Positions 2,788 through 49,313 of a stretch of DNA of 49,313 bases are shown here, piece by piece. A program made the translations under genes and the position numbers. A model generated the notes under the pieces. The model made no database searches. It saw nothing but the letters and a program-made list of their open reading frames with translations, and had not been told where the DNA came from. Positions within the stretch are counted from its first letter, which is position 1; each line of letters opens with the position of its first letter. This DNA is from a virus: IMG/VR virus record IMGVR_UViG_3300046336_000121, positions 1-49,313 of that record; one strand, given 5' to 3'.

Positions 2788-3819
2788 TCAGAGGGTTTTG
2801 TATATTTCAATTAGCGCTTTATTATCAATCTTTTCAACTGCAATTTGACTTAGCATCTTGTGGACAAGTTCATCTACTGTAGATTTCGTAAGTTCGTCTT
2901 GTGATATTCCTGATAAGGTTTCACCTAGTATTTGCTTTGCTTCAGTCTTATCCTCTTCGATAGCTAGAGACTTGATGCCGAGCTGCTTAATAAACATGTC
3001 TTTGAGTATATTATGTTCCTCGTATGTAATGTGGGTATCTGCCATACACCGCACAAATGTCTTTTCGTTTACCTCATGATTCACTTTACCACTTGCTAAC
3101 TCACTCAGTGTAGTCTTGTAGTATCTGGGGCCCCCCATCCAGTTATGGTACGTCTTTTGTCCGGTATCGAATTGGTAGACACATGCTCCTCGAGCTGTAT
3201 CATTTGCGTCCGCAAATGAGGTTGGGAATGTGTTGCCAATGTATGTAACATTCCCTGTAGTCTGCCTCTTGTGAAAGTGTCCTGACAACACACTTATGTA
3301 TTCCGACAACTGTTGAGCGTCTGGCCCGTGATCCATCTTGGTGTTATATCCAGTTATCACGAAATCTTTAAATTCGAAATGGCCGAGCAAGTGGCTAGCA
3401 GGCTGCTTCAATAGGCAAAAATCATACTCATTGTGAAAGAGATACGGTGAAAACAAAGCACTCTTATCAAATTCTGGGAATATGGTAGGTTGATCAATTA
3501 TCGTGAAATTTTCAAACTTATTGAAAAATACACAACTGTGGATATCTCGTGAGTGTTTGTTGAATAAATCGTGATTACCTACGACAAAGTAGATTGGGAG
3601 CCCAAGATTGTTGAGTCTTGTTGCCAATTTATATGAAAGGTTTAGAGTATCGACGTGGATGTGGCTTCGAGATTCGTGCCAATCTCCTAAGAATCCAATG
3701 CTATCGATTGTCGGATCTCCCTCAACGAGGGAAACCAACCACTCCATATATTCAAGAGTGTTGGTTGTGTAGAATAAATCACGAGATTTACCGACATGGT
3801 AGTCGGTAAACAGAAGCAT
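2788..3819 (-). CDS. gp47: recombination endonuclease nuclease subunit (SbcD/Mre11-like)
   Basis: A calcineurin-like metallophosphoesterase of 343 residues. The start chosen is the ATG at 3817-3819, which gives MLLFTDYHVGK; the frame stays open further upstream but runs through the gp55 gene. Metal-binding motifs appear in the Mre11 order: DYHVGK, GDWHES, GNHD and SGHFHKR. It forms the nuclease partner of the Rad50-like protein encoded next to it and processes double-strand ends. The gene begins one base after the gp55 stop codon and ends 18 bases before gp46, so gp55-gp47-gp46 read as one minus-strand operon. Confidence 0.92.
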   Translation of the reverse strand: MLLFTDYHVGKSRDLFYTTNTLEYMEWLVSLVEGDPTIDSIGFLGDWHESRSHIHVDTLNLSYKLATRLNNLGLPIYFVVGNHDLFNKHSRDIHSCVFFNKFENFTIIDQPTIFPEFDKSALFSPYLFHNEYDFCLLKQPASHLLGHFEFKDFVITGYNTKMDHGPDAQQLSEYISVLSGHFHKRQTTGNVTYIGNTFPTSFADANDTARGACVYQFDTGQKTYHNWMGGPRYYKTTLSELASGKVNHEVNEKTFVRCMADTHITYEEHNILKDMFIKQLGIKSLAIEEDKTEAKQILGETLSGISQDELTKSTVDELVHKMLSQIAVEKIDNKALIEIYKTL

Positions 3820-12301: not shown

Positions 12302-12628
12302 TTAGATGTAGTAATTTCGGTGCTCGTACTCAGGTACCATAAGTCTGCGAACACACGAGTCTACTCCACTAGTACCTTGAGCTTCTTGGAGAGATCGCGT
12401 CAAGTCATTTACCCATTGTAGTACAAACATACTCAACTTTGACTGGTCATATGCTGGCCCACGTTGAATGTCGTCAATAAAGTATGTAAATTTAACCTGA
12501 AGCTTTCTCAAATTAGGGGAAGAGTGTGGTAGTGCTCGAGTAGCACTACGAAACATTGCTGATAGCTTATTCGTCATTGCCTCGGAATTGAAAGCTGGGC
12601 GTTGTTGATATTGGGTTTGTTGTTCCAT
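12302..12628 (-). CDS. unknown small protein
   Basis: A 108-residue protein of no recognised family, with a Gln-rich N-terminus and mostly helical character (RSATRALPHSSPNLRKLQVK, then YDQSKLSMFVLQWVNDLTRS). It is isolated on the minus strand, bounded downstream by the bidirectional terminator and upstream by a TATAAATA late promoter on its own strand. That supports it being real and late-expressed. Function unknown. Confidence 0.6.
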   Translation of the reverse strand: MEQQTQYQQRPAFNSEAMTNKLSAMFRSATRALPHSSPNLRKLQVKFTYFIDDIQRGPAYDQSKLSMFVLQWVNDLTRSLQEAQGTSGVDSCVRRLMVPEYEHRNYYI

Positions 12629-12869: not shown

Positions 12870-14696
12870 TTGACAACCACTCTCCCACCTGCAATAGCAG
12901 GCATTACCGTAGACTACTCACGCGATTCATTGTTTGATCAACTCGGTCTACAGAGGCTCAGAGAATCATATATGACCTCCGACGAGGTCAGTCCACAAGA
13001 GCGGTTCGCTAAAGTATCCAAGCAGTTTTCTAGCAATCCTGAACACGCTCAGCGGTTATACAATTACGCTAGTAAACACTGGTTGAGTTATTCAACGCCA
13101 ATCTTATCACATGGCCGCAACAAGAAAGGTCTTTCTGTTAGCTGCTACCTTAGTTTTTTGCCTGATTCATCTGATGGGTTGGTTGATACCTATAAAGAAA
13201 CCTGTATTCTGAGTATGCTTGGGGGAGGCGTTGGCGTAGGTGTTGGCCTTCGTACTAGCGACGATAAATCTACTGGCGTACTTGCCCATATGAAGACGTA
13301 TGACAGCGCGAGTATGGCCTACAAACAAGGATCTACGCGCAGAGGTAGTTTCGCCATGTATTTGGATATCTCACACCCCGAGATTATCCCATTCTTAGAA
13401 ATGAGAAAACCTACTGGCGATGCTAATACACGTTGCACAAATTTGAATCACGCAGTCAATATCCCAGATGCTTTCATGCACATCATCGAACGATGTATGA
13501 AGGACAGTAATGCTAATGATGATTGGCCACTGATTGATCCATTCAGCAAAGAAGTTACTAAGGTGGTATCTGCCAAAGCTCTCTGGTCTCAACTGCTCAA
13601 ACTCCGCAAAGAAACCGGCGAACCATATTTTCTGTTCATCGACACCGCAAATAAGAAGCTCCCTCACTGGCAAAAAAAATTAGGATTGAAAATCCGACAG
13701 TCGAATCTGTGCTCTGAGATAACACTACCTGTCGATGAAAATCGAACTGCAATCTGCGTACTATCATCTGTAAATGCGGAGTACTACGATGAGTGGAAGA
13801 ACGACAACTTGTTTATATCTGATGTTATGGAAATGTTGGATAATGTGCTGCAATATTTTATAGATAATGCGCCAGATTCGATTGCTCGAGCTCGCTTCTC
13901 AGCTCAACGAGAGAGATCAGTTGGTTTGGGTTTGCTTGGTCTGCACGCATATTTCCAAAAAAATAATGTTGCGTTTGGATCACCCGAATCGCGAGCAATG
14001 AATATCCAAATATTCAAACAGCTAGACGATCAATCACTCGAATCCTCAGAGAGACTTGGGGTAGAGCGTGGAGCAAACCTCGACTATATCGAAGGTGGTG
14101 GGGACATGACCAAACCACTTAGATTCTCTCACAGATGCGCACTTGCGCCAAATGCGTCGTCTAGTTTGATTCTAGGAAACACTTCACCAAGCGCCGAACC
14201 GTTCAGAGCCAACTGCTATCGTCAGGACACACTCTCTGGATTCAACTTCCATCGCAACCCATACCTTGATAAATTGATTATTGCTCTGTGTGCTGCAGAT
14301 AAAAAGTTGGACCGTGATGATATTTGGTCGGACATCAATGCACACGATGGGTCAATCCAACACTCTGATTTATTTGACGCACATACAAAAGACGTGTTCA
14401 AGACAGCAATGGAAATTGACCAACAACATATCATTGATCTCGCTGCTGATCGTCAACCCCACATCGACCAAGCGCAGAGTGTTAATGTGTTCACCAAACC
14501 TAACGTGACTACTAAGGTATTGCACGACATTCACTTCAATGCTTGGAAACAAGAATTGAAGACGCTATATTACCTTAGAAGTGAGAAACTTAAATCTACT
14601 GAAAAAATCTCCAAAACAATCAAACGAGTTAAAATCGACGAACAGTCTCCTACCACAGAAGCTGTTGATTCTACAGAGTGTATCGCCTGCCAATAA
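12870..14696 (+). CDS. nrdA: ribonucleotide reductase class I, large (alpha) subunit
   Basis: A 608-residue NrdA that reduces ribonucleoside diphosphates. It has the substrate cysteines in SVSCYLSF and AICVLSSVN, the thiyl-radical cysteine in SNLCSEI, the GLLGLHAYFQ motif and the redox-active C-terminal tail ECIACQ. The start is a TTG at 12870: the conserved LFDQLGLQRL segment must be included, and an in-frame stop lies at 12855-12857. At about 150 residues shorter than E. coli NrdA it lacks the N-terminal ATP-cone, so overall activity would not be dATP-inhibited. The nrdB start follows 6 bases after. Confidence 0.95.
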   Translation: MTTTLPPAIAGITVDYSRDSLFDQLGLQRLRESYMTSDEVSPQERFAKVSKQFSSNPEHAQRLYNYASKHWLSYSTPILSHGRNKKGLSVSCYLSFLPDSSDGLVDTYKETCILSMLGGGVGVGVGLRTSDDKSTGVLAHMKTYDSASMAYKQGSTRRGSFAMYLDISHPEIIPFLEMRKPTGDANTRCTNLNHAVNIPDAFMHIIERCMKDSNANDDWPLIDPFSKEVTKVVSAKALWSQLLKLRKETGEPYFLFIDTANKKLPHWQKKLGLKIRQSNLCSEITLPVDENRTAICVLSSVNAEYYDEWKNDNLFISDVMEMLDNVLQYFIDNAPDSIARARFSAQRERSVGLGLLGLHAYFQKNNVAFGSPESRAMNIQIFKQLDDQSLESSERLGVERGANLDYIEGGGDMTKPLRFSHRCALAPNASSSLILGNTSPSAEPFRANCYRQDTLSGFNFHRNPYLDKLIIALCAADKKLDRDDIWSDINAHDGSIQHSDLFDAHTKDVFKTAMEIDQQHIIDLAADRQPHIDQAQSVNVFTKPNVTTKVLHDIHFNAWKQELKTLYYLRSEKLKSTEKISKTIKRVKIDEQSPTTEAVDSTECIACQ

Positions 14697-14702
14697 ACTA
14701 CT

Positions 14703-15752
14703 ATGTCCAAAAAGAAATTAAAATTAACAGACCCACGTCCATCGTACAAGCCATTCAACTACCAGTGGTGCTACGAAACGTGGATGGATCACGAACGCAT
14801 GCATTGGGGTCACTGGGAGGCCCCTCTCCTGGAGGATGTTAAAGATTGGAACACCAAATTAACACAGTCTGAACAAAACTTCTTGACCCACATCTTCAGA
14901 TTTTTCACTCAAGGTGACATCAGTGTAGCAAATGCATATGTGATGAATTATCTACCGGTATTTCCCCAACCAGAAGTTCGGATGATGTTGTTAAGTTTTG
15001 CGGCTCGTGAAGCTACTCATATTGCAGCATACTCTAACCTAGTGGAAACGCTAGGAATGCCTGACACAATCTACAATCAGTTCTTAGAATATGATGCGAT
15101 GCGTGAAAAATACGAATATGTTGAGAATTTTATCGGAACTGACACCGAGTCCATTGCTCAACAGCTAGCAGTATTCTCAGCATTCACTGAAGGTATGCAA
15201 TTATTTTCATCATTCATCATGTTATTGAACTTCCCCCGTCACGGAACGATGGTTGGAATGGGCTCAAACATCTCTTGGTCGATCCTTGATGAGAAGTGTT
15301 TGGTTGCCGGCACAGAAGTTATGACACTAGATGGGTGGTTACCTATCGAATGTGTCACACTATCTACTGAACTGTTAGAGTATGATACCGAAACCAGTCA
15401 GACTAATTTTGTGACTCCAACCAATCTTACCAAGAAAACAGTACCGACAGTGTACCATTTTAAGGGTGAAGGTTTCTCACAATCAGTATCACCAAATCAT
15501 AGAATGATTTTAGAGATGGGTGATGGTCGGATACAGGACGTTCAGGCGAAGGATATTGAATCTGTAACTGAGGAGTTTAGTTACGTGTGCTCGGGCACTA
15601 AGAGTGGCTCCTTGAAAGTATTGACAGACAAGCATAAGGAATTGTGTAGACTCACCAAAGAAGGTGTATTGTCTTTGGAGTGGGTATTGCCACTGCTCCC
15701 AATAATGGACTCATCGTGGGCGAAGGAATTTCTACTAGAGTACATGAGCTGA
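14703..15752 (+). CDS. nrdB: RNR small subunit, N-terminal half fused to split-intein N-fragment
   Basis: A 349-residue protein in two parts. Residues 1-198 are the N-half of NrdB (SEQNFLTHIFRFFTQGDIS; FAAREATHIAAY with metal ligands and the likely radical Tyr110), ending SWSILDEK. At Cys199 the sequence becomes an intein (CLVAGTEVMTLDGWLPIE, block A; SVSPNHRMIL, block B with a histidine). The C-half resumes in another gene at 16950. The break falls inside the iron-ligand motif DEK/CH, so the enzyme cannot work until trans-splicing joins the halves. The tail after block B (LSLEWVLPLLP, AKEFLLEYMS) resembles the start of a LAGLIDADG endonuclease domain, probably a remnant. Confidence 0.92.
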   Translation: MSKKKLKLTDPRPSYKPFNYQWCYETWMDHERMHWGHWEAPLLEDVKDWNTKLTQSEQNFLTHIFRFFTQGDISVANAYVMNYLPVFPQPEVRMMLLSFAAREATHIAAYSNLVETLGMPDTIYNQFLEYDAMREKYEYVENFIGTDTESIAQQLAVFSAFTEGMQLFSSFIMLLNFPRHGTMVGMGSNISWSILDEKCLVAGTEVMTLDGWLPIECVTLSTELLEYDTETSQTNFVTPTNLTKKTVPTVYHFKGEGFSQSVSPNHRMILEMGDGRIQDVQAKDIESVTEEFSYVCSGTKSGSLKVLTDKHKELCRLTKEGVLSLEWVLPLLPIMDSSWAKEFLLEYMS

Positions 15753-22921: not shown

Positions 22922-23614
22922 ATGGCAAGCACAGATAAATTACTTGGAAGTCAAGTACACACCCACTTGAAATCTCTCGGTCTCGAGACACCGACTACAG
23001 ATAAGGTGAACGCTTCCAGAGCGGAAAAATTAGCCGCTATTGAAGCGAGTACCAAAGCAATGTTAGAAGTGCTTGGTTTAGACCTGACGGATGATAGCTT
23101 AACAGAGACTCCGATGCGGGTTGCTAAGATGTGGGTAGATGATATGATGTGGGGGCTTGATTACAACAACTTCCCAAAGTGCACGACCGTAGACAATAAG
23201 ATGTCAGCACCAGATGAATTTGTTGCAGTCGCAGTTTCTGCGGCTTCTCAGTGTGAACATCACCTTTTGTCCATAATTCCTGCGGGTGGCTTGAACCAAC
23301 CTTCAATTGTGATCGCTTACATTCCAGCGGATAAAGTGCTTGGGTTGTCAAAGTTGAGTCGAATTGCGAACTTTTTCGCCGCCCGCCCACAGGTACAGGA
23401 ACGTCTCACACATCAAATTTTGGAAGCTGTCAAGTTTGTCACAAAATCCGACAGTGTCGCTGTGTTTGCATCCATGGCACATTTGTGTATGTCAACACGG
23501 GGAGCAAAAGATACAGCTTCGGATACAACAACGTGTGCGATGAGTGGAAAATTTGTAACCGACTCGAGTGTCCGCTCAGAATTTCTGGCCATCGCCCGTC
23601 AAAAATTATCATGA
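22922..23614 (+). CDS. folE: GTP cyclohydrolase I
   Basis: A 230-residue FolE. The zinc site is Cys111 and the following CEHHLLS histidines plus Cys189 in AHLCMSTRGAKD, and the substrate-binding GLSKLSRIANFFA and RPQVQERLT segments are intact. It converts GTP to dihydroneopterin triphosphate, the first step of both folate and 7-deazaguanine (queuosine-type) synthesis. A queD-like gene two genes downstream and a dpdA-like gene at 33774 favour the 7-deazaguanine route, that is, DNA base modification. DHFR at 36473 leaves a folate role possible too. Confidence 0.95.
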   Translation: MASTDKLLGSQVHTHLKSLGLETPTTDKVNASRAEKLAAIEASTKAMLEVLGLDLTDDSLTETPMRVAKMWVDDMMWGLDYNNFPKCTTVDNKMSAPDEFVAVAVSAASQCEHHLLSIIPAGGLNQPSIVIAYIPADKVLGLSKLSRIANFFAARPQVQERLTHQILEAVKFVTKSDSVAVFASMAHLCMSTRGAKDTASDTTTCAMSGKFVTDSSVRSEFLAIARQKLS

Positions 23615-23878: not shown

Positions 23879-24844
23879 ATGGTAATGACGGTACAAGACT
23901 ACATCGATAAATATGGTAACGATCGAGGGGTTGAGAAATTTGAGGCTACCCAACGGCGATTGGCTATACGAGCACAAACTTACGCCACTCACCCGTATAC
24001 ACGACTAACCAAGGAGTGGTTTGTGTGGAGATATCCACTAGATGGTTTAACTAGATTTAATAATCATGTGAATAAATCCAGGCAGTCGGAAGAAAATATG
24101 ATTGCTAGGTGGGGTGAAGAGTTAGGTAGAAAAAAATGGCAGGACACTGTCGCTAAGAAGAACACTGTCGCTCTAGTCCGAGCAAGTGGTGGAGAGGTTG
24201 CGGTAGATGCAATGCATGCAAAACGAAAAGCTGCTATTGATAAGTATTGGTCCAATCTATCTGAGACAGAACGGCAATACCACATCACGACGAGAGCTGC
24301 GAAATCATCCGCAACCAAAAAAGAGCGATATGGTAATAAAACAAAGCTCCAAATTTACATCGACAAGCATGGTGAGCTTGGTCACGAATTATACGCCCGT
24401 TACCTCCAGAAAATTTTCAAGTCTATCGGCCATTCGAAGGAAGCTGAAATACTAATCGATCGAGTGTTGTTGGAAAATCCATGGCTATTAAATTACTCGC
24501 TGTATTACAGAAGTTCCTCCGACAAATCCAAATGTGAGTGGTTTTTGAGTTCTAAGAGTGGTGTTAATTTTTATGATTTCTGTGTACGTGAAGCCAAATC
24601 AATTTTAGAGTATGATGGATTTCGGTGGCACCCAACTAAACAGCAAGCTGAGGAATTTCCTGATGAGCTGATGGAGATAACTGGCATGACATATGCACAA
24701 AAATATTCAAAAGACCAAGCTAAAATACAAATGGCTGAAGATCGAGGGTACAAAGTCTTTGTCGTCCGATCTGACTTCACGGAGCAACAAACAGTAGAAG
24801 TTCTGAGCGAATTTATTAACTATACTACAGAAAGATTACAATGA
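23879..24844 (+). CDS. free-standing Vsr-like (EDxHD) homing endonuclease
   Basis: A 321-residue protein. The C-terminal catalytic core is LEYDGFRWHP (Glu244, Asp246, His251), then a KDQAK helix and YKVFVVRSDF, the Vsr-like/EDxHD arrangement. The N-terminal two-thirds hold repeated short modules of the form YIDKYGxxxG, MIARWGEELGRKKW and YIDKHGELGHELY, shared with the endonuclease at 27944 and likely DNA-binding. It lies between the folE operon and queD under its own late promoter, and its stop overlaps the queD start, so it looks like an inserted mobile gene. Its cutting site is unknown. Confidence 0.75.
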   Translation: MVMTVQDYIDKYGNDRGVEKFEATQRRLAIRAQTYATHPYTRLTKEWFVWRYPLDGLTRFNNHVNKSRQSEENMIARWGEELGRKKWQDTVAKKNTVALVRASGGEVAVDAMHAKRKAAIDKYWSNLSETERQYHITTRAAKSSATKKERYGNKTKLQIYIDKHGELGHELYARYLQKIFKSIGHSKEAEILIDRVLLENPWLLNYSLYYRSSSDKSKCEWFLSSKSGVNFYDFCVREAKSILEYDGFRWHPTKQQAEEFPDELMEITGMTYAQKYSKDQAKIQMAEDRGYKVFVVRSDFTEQQTVEVLSEFINYTTERLQ

Positions 24845-25356
24845 CCCCACAACATCAGCCAATCGCATACAAATTCACATCCACAAAAGAGTACGTTGAC
24901 GCATTCCCGTGTGCATATCGCCAGTGGAAATCAGACACCTGGTGCAACACTGTACACGGGTACTGTTTTTCAATGAAGTTTTACTTCGGTACAAATGATC
25001 TTGACAAAAGAAACTGGGTTTGTGACTATGGCGGCCTCAAAGAATTAAAACAAGTTTTGGCAGATCAATTTGACCATACACTACTAGTCGCCCAGGATGA
25101 TCCATATATTACGCTCTATGAAGCAATGCAGAGTGCAGGCATTGCTAAGCTAACGATCCTCCCTAGATTGGGCTGTGAAGGATTGGCAGACATGTTATAC
25201 AAATACGTCAATGGCGTTTACATTCCCGACATGTTGGGGCAAAGCGAAGCTGAGCGGCTCTGGTGCTATAAAGTTGAGGTCCGTGAAACACAAGCGAATA
25301 TGGCCTTTCGGGAAGGTCACAGAGAGTGGAATGAAGATCTACTCTCTGAATTTTAA
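24841..25356 (+). CDS. queD: QueD-like 6-carboxytetrahydropterin synthase family protein
   Basis: A 171-residue protein of the 6-pyruvoyl/6-carboxy-tetrahydropterin synthase fold. Markers are FPCAYRQWKSD, TVHGYCFSMKF, WVCDYGGLKELK and FDHTLLVAQDDP. The second step of 7-deazaguanine synthesis converts the FolE product. In canonical QueD three His bind zinc (AAHR and HGH); here they read AYR and HGY, so only His39 remains. Phage relatives I recall carry the same change, so either the metal site is different or another residue substitutes. It ends with a strong terminator, so it closes the folE operon. Confidence 0.75.
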   Translation: MTPQHQPIAYKFTSTKEYVDAFPCAYRQWKSDTWCNTVHGYCFSMKFYFGTNDLDKRNWVCDYGGLKELKQVLADQFDHTLLVAQDDPYITLYEAMQSAGIAKLTILPRLGCEGLADMLYKYVNGVYIPDMLGQSEAERLWCYKVEVRETQANMAFREGHREWNEDLLSEF

Positions 25357-34625: not shown

Positions 34626-35209
34626 TTATTTCACCACAAAAAGCCTACGACCTCGGGATTGTTACAAAACTATTAAACGCTACCAAACAAATTGGCAGTG
34701 ATGGTATTGATTTGACAATCAAATCTATCTCGCGGGTGGCTAGTCCACACCGACCAGTTACCCTATCAGAATCCAAACAACGGACACAGTACCTCGATCA
34801 TACCCCTATTATACCGGTATCGACCCCGGGTGCAGATTCTAGTCTACCACGATCGTACTTCTTGCACCCGGCTGTGTATGATGTTACATTTAATGAAGGG
34901 TGTGCATTGCCCTTGGGGGTAGCTGCAACATTGCACCTGCGCAGTACATTCGTGCGCAATGGTTGCTTTGGGGTAAGTGGTTTGTACGATTCCGGCTTCA
35001 CTTCAACAAACTGTGGAATGCTGTTACACGTCAATTACACAATCGCCGTTGAAGAGAATATGCGGTTAGCCCAGATGGTGTTGTGGGACAGTGATTCAGC
35101 TAAGTTGTATGATGGTACGTACAACAATCAACTTGGTACATCCTGGAAGGACACAGCCACCAGCAATATTGCTCGTCCAACGACAGAATTTGATAAGGAC
35201 GTATTGTGA
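34622..35209 (+). CDS. dCTP deaminase/dUTPase-family protein
   Basis: A 195-residue protein of the dUTPase/dCTP deaminase fold. Markers are KQIGSDGIDLTIKSI near the N-terminus, LPLGVAATLHLRSTFVRNG in the middle, GLYDSGFTSTNCGMLLHV and MRLAQMVLWDSDSAKLYDG. It would either deaminate dCTP or hydrolyse dUTP, feeding dTTP synthesis and limiting uracil in DNA. Which reaction cannot be told by eye. It overlaps dpdA by 4 bases and the exonuclease gene by 4. Confidence 0.75.
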   Translation: MIISPQKAYDLGIVTKLLNATKQIGSDGIDLTIKSISRVASPHRPVTLSESKQRTQYLDHTPIIPVSTPGADSSLPRSYFLHPAVYDVTFNEGCALPLGVAATLHLRSTFVRNGCFGVSGLYDSGFTSTNCGMLLHVNYTIAVEENMRLAQMVLWDSDSAKLYDGTYNNQLGTSWKDTATSNIARPTTEFDKDVL

Positions 35210-35790
35210 GCAAAGTCTTATTCATTGACGTTGAGACTAGTGGATATAGTAGGAATACCGGCATGGATCGGAGCAACGGCTACAAGTACCAAATTGTATC
35301 CCTTGGAGGGGTAGTATCAGATACTAAAACGCTCAAAGAAGGAAACTCATTCTATATTGAAATTAAACCAAATGGTATGAGTTTGTGGGACAGTGAAGCA
35401 GAGGCTGTACACGGACTGTCGAGAGAGTACCTAGAGGAGAATGGTGTTGAAGAAGAGGAAGCTCTTGCAGCATTCTGTGAATTCTTGAGCGAAAACTTCG
35501 ACACGAACAAGGCTCTAACGCTTGGTGGACACAATGTAGATACGTTCGACCGGCATTTCTTACTAAGTTGGTTCGACAAATACAACATGGCTCTCAAGTT
35601 GTCGGGGCACAGCATCGATTCGTTCTCAGTTGGGTCTATCCTATATAACACCAAGGACTCGAATGAGTTGTTTGAGATGTTCAATGTAGTTCGTGACAAG
35701 CACAATTCACTTGAAGATGCTCAAGCTGCACTCAAAGCGGTCAGAATGATTCGTACTATTTTCAATAAAGCACTAGACACAAATGTTTGA
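35206..35790 (+). CDS. DEDDh 3'-5' exonuclease (DnaQ-like)
   Basis: A 194-residue protein starting at GTG 35206, overlapping the previous stop. It has the three DnaQ motifs: LFIDVETSG (DxE), GGHNVDTFDRHF and the final HNSLEDAQAA, where the His and Asp complete the DEDDh set. It could act as an RNase T-like or proofreading exonuclease, or process nucleic acid in nucleotide recycling. Confidence 0.85.
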   Translation: MSKVLFIDVETSGYSRNTGMDRSNGYKYQIVSLGGVVSDTKTLKEGNSFYIEIKPNGMSLWDSEAEAVHGLSREYLEENGVEEEEALAAFCEFLSENFDTNKALTLGGHNVDTFDRHFLLSWFDKYNMALKLSGHSIDSFSVGSILYNTKDSNELFEMFNVVRDKHNSLEDAQAALKAVRMIRTIFNKALDTNV

Positions 35791-41133: not shown

Positions 41134-41234
41134 GGTTTCTTCGTTTAACACGGTAAGACCATTACCCTTCGATTAGTCAGAAAACAGGCGTCGCTGACTT
41201 GGTAATGAAATAGGTTCGAGCCCTATAGAGACTA
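41134..41234 (+). ncRNA. tRNA-like RNA A (tRNA-Arg(UCG)-like with insertion in the anticodon loop)
   Basis: A 101-base cloverleaf-like element. Acceptor GGTTTCT/AGAGACT (with G-U pairs), D arm GTTT...AGAC and T arm ATAGG-TTCGAGC-CCTAT are all present. The anticodon stem TTACC/GGTAA closes on C-T-TCG-A, which would be U33, anticodon UCG and A37. A 27-base segment, with a 6-bp AGTCAG/CTGACT hairpin, then follows before the last loop base. That is the canonical tRNA-intron position (37/38). No CCA is encoded. It may be a non-functional tRNA, a spliced one or a tRNA-mimicking RNA. Confidence 0.6.
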
Positions 41235-46522: not shown

Positions 46523-47164
46523 ATGACCTCTAGAACAAAATACCCTCGAACGTACCACCTACCATTCTCCCCAGGCCTCCAATCAGACGACAAGGTCATC
46601 CAATCTATGGAGGATCTGATCGGATCTGAAGTTGTCGTGACGCTGAAAATGGATGGTGAAAACACCACGCTGTACCCAGATGGGTATCTCCACGCACGTT
46701 CGATCGACTCGGTGTCTAATTGGACTCGTGACATTGCTAAGAAAATTCACTCACAAATTGCACACGATATACCAACCGGTCACAGGCTGTGTTGTGAGAA
46801 TGTATATGCCAAACATTCGATCCACTATCCAGATGGTTACCTGGAGGGGTACCTATATTTGCTGTCTGTGTGGAATGATGACACTTGCCTGTCATACGAC
46901 GACACGCTGATGTATGCTGAACTATTTTCCCTCCCAACACCAAAACAACTGTATAGAGGTGTATATGATGAGAGTGCACTCAAGGAACTCGCGGCAAATC
47001 TTGATACTGCGATTGAGGAAGGTTTTGTTGTGAGGGCGACACGCGCATTCAATTACGAGAACTTCAGCTCTTGTGTCACAAAGTACGTCAGGGCTGGACA
47101 CGTGCAGACAGATCAACACTGGCTCAAAAATGCTAGTCCAAACGGAAAAATAAGTTCAAAATAA
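46523..47164 (+). CDS. RNA ligase (Rnl2/DRB-type)
   Basis: A 213-residue nucleotidyltransferase. The active lysine is Lys42 in TLKMDGENTT (KxDG, motif I), with later CENVYAKHSI (motif III), EEGFVVRA (motif IV) and KYVRAG (motif V). It joins 5'-phosphate to 3'-hydroxyl RNA ends. Phage ligases repair tRNAs cut by host anticodon nucleases, which fits the tRNA genes and tRNA-like RNAs nearby. No partner polynucleotide kinase is visible in the window. Confidence 0.88.
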   Translation: MTSRTKYPRTYHLPFSPGLQSDDKVIQSMEDLIGSEVVVTLKMDGENTTLYPDGYLHARSIDSVSNWTRDIAKKIHSQIAHDIPTGHRLCCENVYAKHSIHYPDGYLEGYLYLLSVWNDDTCLSYDDTLMYAELFSLPTPKQLYRGVYDESALKELAANLDTAIEEGFVVRATRAFNYENFSSCVTKYVRAGHVQTDQHWLKNASPNGKISSK

Positions 47165-48393: not shown

Positions 48394-48594
48394 ATGGCGA
48401 CCGTATACACACTAATTTACATTGCAGCATCATTCCACAATCCATTAGCTGCACCAGCTGTGTTAGGTAATTATGCATCAGAACTTGCTTGCAAAAATGC
48501 AAGCACCACATTGCTTGTGGCTAGTAAAATTGGAGACTCTAATACCAGCCGATTTTTGTGCATCAATTCCAGCACCGGCCAGAAAGTAAATTAA
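48394..48594 (+). CDS. small exported protein, paralogue of 42953 protein
   Basis: A 66-residue protein with a hydrophobic start (TVYTLIYIAASFH) and LGNYASELACKNAS, then a second Cys (FLCINSS), matching the 42953 protein. Leader AAGGAAATTCAAAATG. Follows P8, so it is early. Confidence 0.55.
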   Translation: MATVYTLIYIAASFHNPLAAPAVLGNYASELACKNASTTLLVASKIGDSNTSRFLCINSSTGQKVN

Positions 48595-48601
48595 ATAATT
48601 G

Positions 48602-48629
48602 TTGACTTGTTTGAAACTTCATTGATAAT
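48602..48629 (+). promoter_or_regulatory. sigma70 promoter P9 before tRNA-like RNAs B and C
   Basis: TTGACT (48602-48607), 16-base spacer, GATAAT (48624-48629). No gene with ribosome site follows; the structured RNAs start about 30 bases downstream. Confidence 0.65.
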
Positions 48630-48657
48630 GGATATCAAGTGAGGATTACATTAAAAT

Positions 48658-48802
48658 CTGAACAGTGTAACGATAGCTTAAATAGTAGAGCTAGTACAAA
48701 GGTAGTGGGAAATATTAGCTATAAAGCCCATGAGAATAGTACGACCTGTAACCATCAGGTGGTAGTTGGTGCAAATCCAACCGAGTACTGTGTTCAGTTT
48801 TT
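48658..48802 (+). ncRNA. tRNA-like structured RNA B
   Basis: A folded RNA, likely non-coding. CTGAAC/GTTCAG and AGTGT/GTACT form a closing helix, followed by TTTTT (48798-48802), so it can end transcription. Inside are a D-arm-like GCTT..GAGC, a GTAC..GTAC stem holding a large loop (a GTGGG/CCCAT hairpin within), a class II-like variable arm ACCTG/CAGGT, and a T-arm-like GTTGG-TGCAAAT-CCAAC. The anticodon region is much larger than in a tRNA. Function unknown. Confidence 0.5.
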
Positions 48803-48820
48803 AGTGCAATTCTTGTATAA

Positions 48821-48996
48821 AATAAATTCAGAAAGAGTGGTTGCAAGGCAGCCAACTTCGTGCGGGCATAGATTAGTAGACTCCTAATTAGTATTGAGGA
48901 TCTGTGCCGCGATAGGAGGTAATATTACCTATCGAGAAATCCACTAAGTTGTTAGGGTTCGATCTCCCTTTACCCGCTCTTTCTAAATTTATTTTT
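48821..48996 (+). ncRNA. tRNA-like structured RNA C
   Basis: A second folded RNA. The closing helix AATAAATT-C-AGAAAGAG pairs with CTCTTTCT-A-AATTTATT (one mismatch in 17), then a T-run follows. Inside: a D-arm-like GTTG..CAAC, a long stem (TGCGG/CCGCG and CATAGAT/ATCTGTG) where the anticodon arm would be, a variable-arm-like GATAGG/CCTATC containing a 14-base palindrome, and a T-loop-like GGTTCGATC. It departs from a true tRNA more than RNA B does. Confidence 0.45.
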
Positions 48997-49014
48997 CAAG
49001 TTGAAAAATAATTG

Positions 49015-49042
49015 TTGACCTGTTCAAATAAATGTTGATAAT
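49015..49042 (+). promoter_or_regulatory. sigma70 promoter P10 before tRNA-like RNA D
   Basis: TTGACC (49015-49020), 16-base spacer, GATAAT (49037-49042), followed by GGGGTCTAAG. Confidence 0.65.
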
Positions 49043-49066
49043 GGGGTCTAAGTAGTTAGAAAATCT

Positions 49067-49190
49067 AAAATATTTTCAAATCAAATTTTATAGCTCATTG
49101 GTAGAGCAGTCGGGGCGGCGTTCAATTGCTATCCTATTGGATGGGAGGTTCAAGTCCTTTCTAAACTTTGATTTGAAAATATTTTTAAAA
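49067..49190 (+). ncRNA. tRNA-like structured RNA D inside a 19-bp helix
   Basis: AAAATATTTTCAAATCAAA (49067-49085) pairs perfectly with TTTGATTTGAAAATATTTT (49167-49185), with TTTA/TAAA continuing inside. Enclosed are a tRNA-like D arm (GCTC-ATTGGTA-GAGC) and T arm (GGAGG-TTCAAGT-CCTTT). Between them, instead of a normal anticodon arm, lie a G-rich stretch and a TATCC-TATT-GGATG hairpin. The long helix ending in T-rich sequence may also terminate transcription. Confidence 0.5.
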
Positions 49191-49207
49191 TTTTGGTAAA
49201 ATAATTG

Positions 49208-49236
49208 TTGACTTATATAAATAAAGCATATATAAT
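49208..49236 (+). promoter_or_regulatory. sigma70 promoter P11
   Basis: TTGACT (49208-49213), 17-base spacer, TATAAT (49231-49236). The spacer also contains TATAAATA (49216-49223), the late-promoter sequence. Confidence 0.75.
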
Positions 49237-49265
49237 AGACAGATAGCAAATAAAGAGATCAAGAA

Positions 49266-49313
49266 ATGATTTTGAATTCGTATAATACAGGAAGTGAACA
49301 TTGCCAGACGGAA
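49266..49313 (+). CDS. start of a gene cut by the window edge
   Basis: ATG 49266 is preceded by AAGAGATCAAGAA and promoter P11. The 16 codons visible (MILNSYNTGSEHCQTE) remain open to the window end. Product unknown. Confidence 0.5.
   Translation, partial: MILNSYNTGSEHCQTE

Follow-up and report, generated by a model that had tools for sequence, protein, structure and literature searches.

The DNA analysed here (the window) is a 49.3-kb viral fragment, IMG/VR record IMGVR_UViG_3300046336_000121, and positions refer to it unless another record is named. The top database matches of its family B DNA polymerase are jumbo-phage proteins with 40% identity, and ribonucleotide reductase and baseplate genes are also present. 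Two close relatives, L005 and L006, are approximately 98.7% identical to the window. We also noted a gene for the anti-CBASS protein Acb1 (PF23474, 35783-36262) adjoining an RNase T-type exonuclease (35206-35790), and GTP cyclohydrolase I with a homologue of 6-pyruvoyl-tetrahydropterin synthase (22922-23614 and 24841-25356), a pair that possibly carries out the first steps to 7-deazaguanine (queuosine-type) bases for DNA or tRNA modification.

Near the right end of the window a gene stops at 48594 and a small ORF starts at 49267, leaving a gene-free stretch at 48595-49266. This agrees with the original prediction of about 670 bases without clear genes after 48598, as no gene was found between 48594 and 49267. 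The sole long ORF in the stretch (GTG start, 48639-48887) was rejected as protein-coding: its frame is destroyed in L005, where a 1-nt indel cuts it short after 12 codons. The stretch is occupied by three strongly folded non-coding elements, named B, C and D, and a related element, A, lies further upstream. The features of the locus are as follows.

41134-41234, + strand: element A, which has a tRNA-like body, lacks CCA and carries a hairpin inserted into its anticodon loop.
46523-47164, + strand: ATP-dependent RNA ligase gene (PF09414), about 1.5 kb upstream of element B.
48602-48629, + strand: sigma70-type promoter TTGACT-16-GATAAT, predicted to serve B and probably C (rank 24 of 49,277 positions).
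48652-48803, + strand: element B, with closing helix 48652-48669/48786-48803, U8A9, D-arm 48676-48691, inner arm GTAC 48694-48697/48739-48742, variable-arm-like hairpin 48744-48760 and T-arm 48765-48781.
48819-48995, + strand: element C, with closing helix 48819-48840/48974-48995, enlarged arm 48865-48873/48900-48908, hairpin 48912-48932 and T-arm 48954-48969 with an 8-nt loop.
49015-49042, + strand: sigma70-type promoter TTGACC-16-GATAAT, predicted to serve D (rank 29 of 49,277).
49067-49185, + strand: element D, with closing helix 49067-49090/49162-49185, U8A9, canonical D-arm with GG 49093-49107, a replaced anticodon arm, T-arm GGAGG-TTCAAGT-CCTTT 49144-49160 and no CCA.
49208-49236, + strand: strong promoter TTGACT-17-TATAAT downstream of D (rank 2 of 49,277).

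One promoter per element had been proposed, and this was confirmed in part: promoters precede B and D, C has none, and the third follows D. The best promoter-like site at the B-C junction ranked only 301st; as C lacks a promoter of its own, B and C are probably co-transcribed. Judged from its position, the third promoter would serve the small ORF that begins at 49267 and is 42 aa long in L005, and no RNA element.

The three elements share a common build in which the leader pairs with the trailer in a helix of 18-24 bp, and all have a tRNA-type T-arm. U8A9 and a D-arm are found in B and D, while C has no clear D-arm; the expectation of D- and T-arm-like motifs in each element was therefore borne out for the T-arm throughout and for the D-arm in B and D only. 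Inspection of the sequences revealed no encoded CCA and no normal anticodon arm in B, C or D, as anticipated by the claim that the anticodon region is replaced. B was detected by folding, and C and D also as inverted repeats. The closing helix of B is paired at 18/18 positions in L005 and L242 (a more distant contig described below) and carries three mismatches and a 1-nt deletion in the window copy; that of C has 22-nt arms with 91% complementarity and one mismatch; that of D has 24-nt arms with 96% complementarity and one mismatch in the window, and is perfect in L005. Minimum free energy (MFE) z-scores against dinucleotide shuffles were -3.6 for B, -5.0 for C and -5.3 for D, and -6.3 for B of L005. 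An apparent extra T-arm in the insert of D (TTCAATT), of a kind also present in records L195, L225 and L227, was dropped because its closing pair is G-G.

A run of T residues follows the closing helix of each element, so that the predicted arrangement of three inverted-repeat-closed elements, each with a T-run behind it, was recovered. Taken with the alternation of promoters with B and D, these T-rich tails could indicate cis-acting structures, the closing helix and T-run forming a terminator or attenuator between transcription units. We consider this quite unlikely, since a terminator needs no tRNA core, a scan of the + strand for hairpin-plus-T terminators found none at the B-C-D locus, and the inner arms and T-stem are kept by compensatory changes (see below).

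ARAGORN made no tRNA or tmRNA call for B, C or D in either the window or L005. Against the Rfam tRNA family (RF00005, gathering cut-off 29 bits), B and C of the window gave no match and D scored 20.2 bits, below the cut-off, with D of L005 just reaching it at 29.1 bits; D is thus clearly tRNA-derived. For B and C, ordinary tRNA, tmRNA, group I intron, YrlA and every other Rfam family were rejected for want of a match, and no group I or II intron was matched at the B-C-D locus. The original prediction had allowed that tRNA finders might resolve the elements as ordinary tRNA remnants: B and C are resolved by no Rfam family or tRNA finder, and D is a recognisable tRNA derivative. Element A scored 38.5 bits to the Rfam tRNA model in L005, with an ordinary 7-bp acceptor and a non-significant MFE; it was missed by ARAGORN, and falls in one of the small number of further DNA blocks alignable with L242.

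When the cores of B, C and D were searched against the whole of IMG/VR, only the L005, L006 and L242 contigs were recovered, and a DNA search among the nearest polymerase relatives recovered only L005 and L006, all other matches being chance-level pieces. L242 contains a third variant of B-C-D. Alignment of its 38.7-kb contig with the window is confined to a few short blocks, most of the contig having no blastn match, and the gene just upstream of B is unalignable; the elements themselves are 95.4% (B), 96.6% (C) and 94.4% (D) identical between the two. A recent exchange of the cassette between phages may be part of the reason for this contrast between a conserved block and diverged flanks.

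In C, 10 base pairs vary among the three variants, three of them by double compensatory change: a stalk pair from A-U to U-A, a pair at the foot of the enlarged arm from C-G to U-A, and a T-stem pair from A-U to G-C. One mismatch is repaired, and no pair is broken except for an end gap. The comparison with related phages that had been suggested as a check for covariation thus yielded three double compensatory changes in C between L005 and L242. Among the 13 substitutions separating these two copies, three double compensations have a probability of 0.00025 under random placement of the substitutions, and the absence of non-pairs (0 against 4.1 expected) a probability of 0.0013 under the same model, values obtained on structures derived from those same sequences. 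The column-shuffle control, which is weak with three sequences, gave 28/500. As only three B-C-D variants exist, the covariation rests on few events.

We conclude that B, C and D are very probably selected structured RNAs. The proposal that they are small RNA genes mimicking tRNA is upheld by their arms, compensatory changes, promoters and conservation as a block, by the occurrence of the same build elsewhere and by the absence of an ARAGORN call. A reading as functionless, degenerate tRNA pseudogenes in a tRNA-rich region might appeal to the damaged stalk of B in the window and to the frequency of odd tRNAs in jumbo-phage arrays. It is disfavoured, and we hold it to be very unlikely, in view of the compensatory changes, the strong fold z-scores, the retained promoters and the 94-97% identity of B-C-D while the flanking DNA diverged.

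L005 extends beyond the right end of the window, where the 42-aa ORF is followed by a terminator and then an array of tRNAs, at least 15 of them ordinary; ARAGORN found 18 normal tRNAs encoded by L005. B-C-D is therefore placed between the RNA-ligase neighbourhood and a large tRNA array. Homologues of the ligase occur in several other jumbo phages, often with tRNA arrays no more than a few kb away. L005 also encodes long tRNAs of 87-95 nt whose anticodons are those for Asn, Thr and Cys (12429-12523, 13832-13918 and 15342-15430); by eye these have a long variable arm, an odd combination. At 13.9-15.1 kb of L005, within the array, one complete and one cut copy of a tRNA-Met-like gene were seen by eye on either side of an ORF with HNH-like features and repeated structured motifs, an arrangement that resembles a tRNA gene invaded by a homing element.

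A descriptor combining a T-arm hairpin, an adjacent closing helix of at least 15 bp and a D-arm was run on approximately 1.2 Mb of jumbo-phage DNA, and picked out D together with a single further element, in the unrelated phage L019. The same descriptor had no match in 0.5 Mb of shuffled sequence, and a variant with a strict T-loop had none in 2.4 Mb. A second scan, of a further 1.1 Mb including the tRNA-array regions of about 20 jumbo phages, added elements in L195, L225 and L227, under looser settings that also gave three weak shuffled matches with a D-arm. Weak descriptor matches in L073, L074, L194, L203 and L217 were regarded as chance. The elements outside the window's relatives are as follows.

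L019, 341-547: 24-bp stalk with one mismatch, U8A9, D-arm with GG and T-arm; about 110 nt stand in place of the anticodon arm.
L195 (Agrobacterium phage Atu_ph07), 3892-4039, - strand: own promoter TTGACG-17-TATATT; the anticodon loop is Tyr-like and is split by an insert of about 45 nt, and the record is unannotated there.
L225, 12851-12986: descriptor match.
L227, 12169-12295: descriptor match.

Directly after the stalked element of L019 lie about 700 non-coding bases (548-1250) with apparently more folded RNAs and a terminator-like hairpin at the end. Elsewhere in jumbo-phage tRNA arrays we noted T-arms accompanied by D- and anticodon arms that are very short or absent (L072, 4285-4353; L059, approximately 3260-3290). 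A covariance model, R1, made from A, B, D and the L019 element with their inserts replaced by N, was not diagnostic because it found all tRNAs and missed the long-insert members.

Ordinary-looking tRNAs can carry the same stalk. The acceptor helix is prolonged by at least 10 further pairs in 13 of 602 array tRNAs, 12 of which have no encoded CCA, so that the stalk is present in 12/170 tRNAs lacking CCA versus 1/432 with it (Fisher P = 2e-6). An Asn or Pro anticodon is found in 10 of the 13 as opposed to 9.5% of all tRNAs, with P = 7e-9, a value that is optimistic because the phages are not all independent. Stalked tRNAs form tandem triplets in L214 and L226, and most of the 13 lack a strong promoter of their own. 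Records with stalked tRNAs are L214, L226, L216, L227, L229, L197, L199, L201 and L005 (13812-13936). A literature search found no report of phage tRNAs whose acceptor stem is extended or whose leader pairs with the trailer.

The existence of ordinary-looking tRNAs with this stalk, the inserts within the anticodon loop of element A and of the Atu_ph07 element, the nearby RNA ligase gene and the reading of the L019 element by ARAGORN, with introns allowed, as a tRNA with a 101-nt intron could all point to unusual tRNA precursors, in which RNase III would cut the stalk as in rRNA precursors and the phage ligase would aid removal of the insert to give working tRNAs. For B-C-D we regard such maturation as rather improbable: B and C have no discernible anticodon exon pair, CCA is missing, the locus gives no group I or II intron match, and L005 already encodes its 18 normal tRNAs.

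We tentatively favour, with somewhat less than even confidence, the reading of B-C-D as unprocessable tRNA mimics, most likely decoys. The cassette would yield B and C from one promoter and D from another, all as tRNA-derived non-coding RNAs with a tRNA-like elbow, an acceptor stem that runs into the 18-24 bp stalk and other hairpins replacing the anticodon arm. The stalk would hide the sites for RNase P and 3′ processing, blocking tail trimming and charging, and the uncharged, unmatured RNA would persist as a stable, nuclease-resistant mimic of the elbow. Such a mimic could titrate whatever proteins read the elbow or T-arm of tRNA, the likeliest being defence nucleases of the host that cleave tRNA or enzymes of tRNA processing; decoys and RNA ligase together would protect the phage's own tRNA set. 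With the two ends zipped in a long stalk, a role in translation is probably to be discounted. Having no normal anticodon loop, B, C and D could not be direct substrates of anticodon nucleases; any decoy action would have to take place via the elbow or stalk.

The suggestion in the original prediction of decoys or partners in tRNA-nuclease or ligase biology appears to fit the genomic context, with the ligase gene upstream of B and tRNA arrays near its homologues. Attack by anticodon nucleases and the repair of RNA figure prominently in the biology of jumbo phages (PMC7824862), and YrlA has been suggested, not shown, to be a competitive inhibitor of anticodon nuclease (PMC7790460). Against the decoy reading stand the damage to B's stalk in the window and the lack of a canonical D-arm in C.

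More speculatively, and in our estimation somewhat unlikely, jumbo phages may carry an undescribed class of stalk-locked tRNAs and tRNA-like RNAs that absorb host defences targeting tRNA, with B-C-D as its most derived members; the class would be CCA-less and leader-trailer paired, often arranged in tandem and next to tRNA arrays, and not for translation. Phage tRNA arrays are usually viewed as codon supply or tRNA replacement, and selected mimics apparently unable to mature or be charged would constitute a different use of tRNA genes. The same stalk is seen in 13 further tRNAs and four tRNA-like RNAs of other jumbo phages, some of which have cultured hosts (Agrobacterium phage Atu_ph07, with its element near 323.9 kb, Sinorhizobium phage Phosso, with one near 461.2 kb, and Stenotrophomonas phage RAS14) and are therefore open to laboratory testing.

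Among known RNAs, tmRNA resembles B-C-D in having a tRNA-like domain and a replaced anticodon arm. Unlike B-C-D, it ends in CCA, lacks a D-stem and contains an mRNA domain and pseudoknots. Ordinary phage tRNAs, some of which resist cleavage or replace cleaved host tRNAs (PMC10264068), share the elbow modules and genomic setting, and D of L005 stands just at the cut-off of their family model, whereas B-C-D lacks CCA and an anticodon arm and has the 18-24 bp stalk.

In YrlA (RF02553) the paired 5′ and 3′ ends form a long stem capped by a tRNA mimic with D- and T-arms (PMC8394870). On this model, in which the YrlA stem binds Ro60/Rsr, the stalk of B-C-D would bind a phage or host RNA-binding protein and the head would recruit or gate an enzyme such as PNPase. 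Besides the shared architecture, TROVE/Ro60 is encoded in 10 of the 34 jumbo-phage records searched, and Y-RNA-like elements lie beside the gene in three of these, G024 (L258, 329.3-330.2 kb), G010 (L259, 41.2-41.9 kb) and G018 (L260, 278.2-278.6 kb). Those in G024 and G010 are tandem sets; in every case a long stem bears a tRNA module of permuted order (T-arm, acceptor hairpin, D-arm), and all score below the Rfam YrlA cut-off. We nevertheless judge a Y-RNA-like scaffold to be unlikely. The order of modules in YrlA is T-arm, acceptor hairpin, D-arm, as opposed to D-arm, enlarged arm, T-arm in B-C-D, and the YrlA stem replaces the anticodon arm whereas that of B-C-D extends the acceptor. The RF02553 model matched nothing in the window record and scored the L005 copy at only 14 bits, where 69 are required; no TROVE/Ro60 gene was found in the window, L005, L006 or L242 contigs, all of which are fragments, and stalked RNAs also occur in records without TROVE (G011, G016, G022 and W06).

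T4 RNA C and RNA D are late transcripts of unknown role (PMC3014915, PMC9697503), and RNA C is, like B-C-D, a phage non-coding RNA located at the end of a tRNA cluster, with no CCA. On folding, RNA C shows a perfect canonical T-arm, a long variable hairpin and an enlarged arm replacing the anticodon arm, and could thus place B-C-D among late stable RNAs of this kind with another function, such as gene regulation or virion morphogenesis. RNA C, however, folds with neither a long leader-trailer stalk nor a D-arm, and was rejected as a homologue for lack of the long stalk; the fold of RNA D shows no clear tRNA shape. No sequence similarity between B-C-D and T4 RNA C or D was detected, and the T4 RNAs gave no Rfam family match; a distant BLAST search with rnaC listed T4-like enterobacterial phages. 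We think such a kinship improbable, and as the role of RNA C is unknown the parallel predicts little. Conversely, mimics of the kind favoured here, stalk-locked decoys, would offer a concrete way into the long-standing puzzle of the role of the T4-type stable RNAs C and D. T4 RNA C/D and YrlA are the closest known systems, and neither fits B-C-D on the features tested; B-C-D groups with the phage tRNA-like stable RNAs, as a variant outside both of the families compared.
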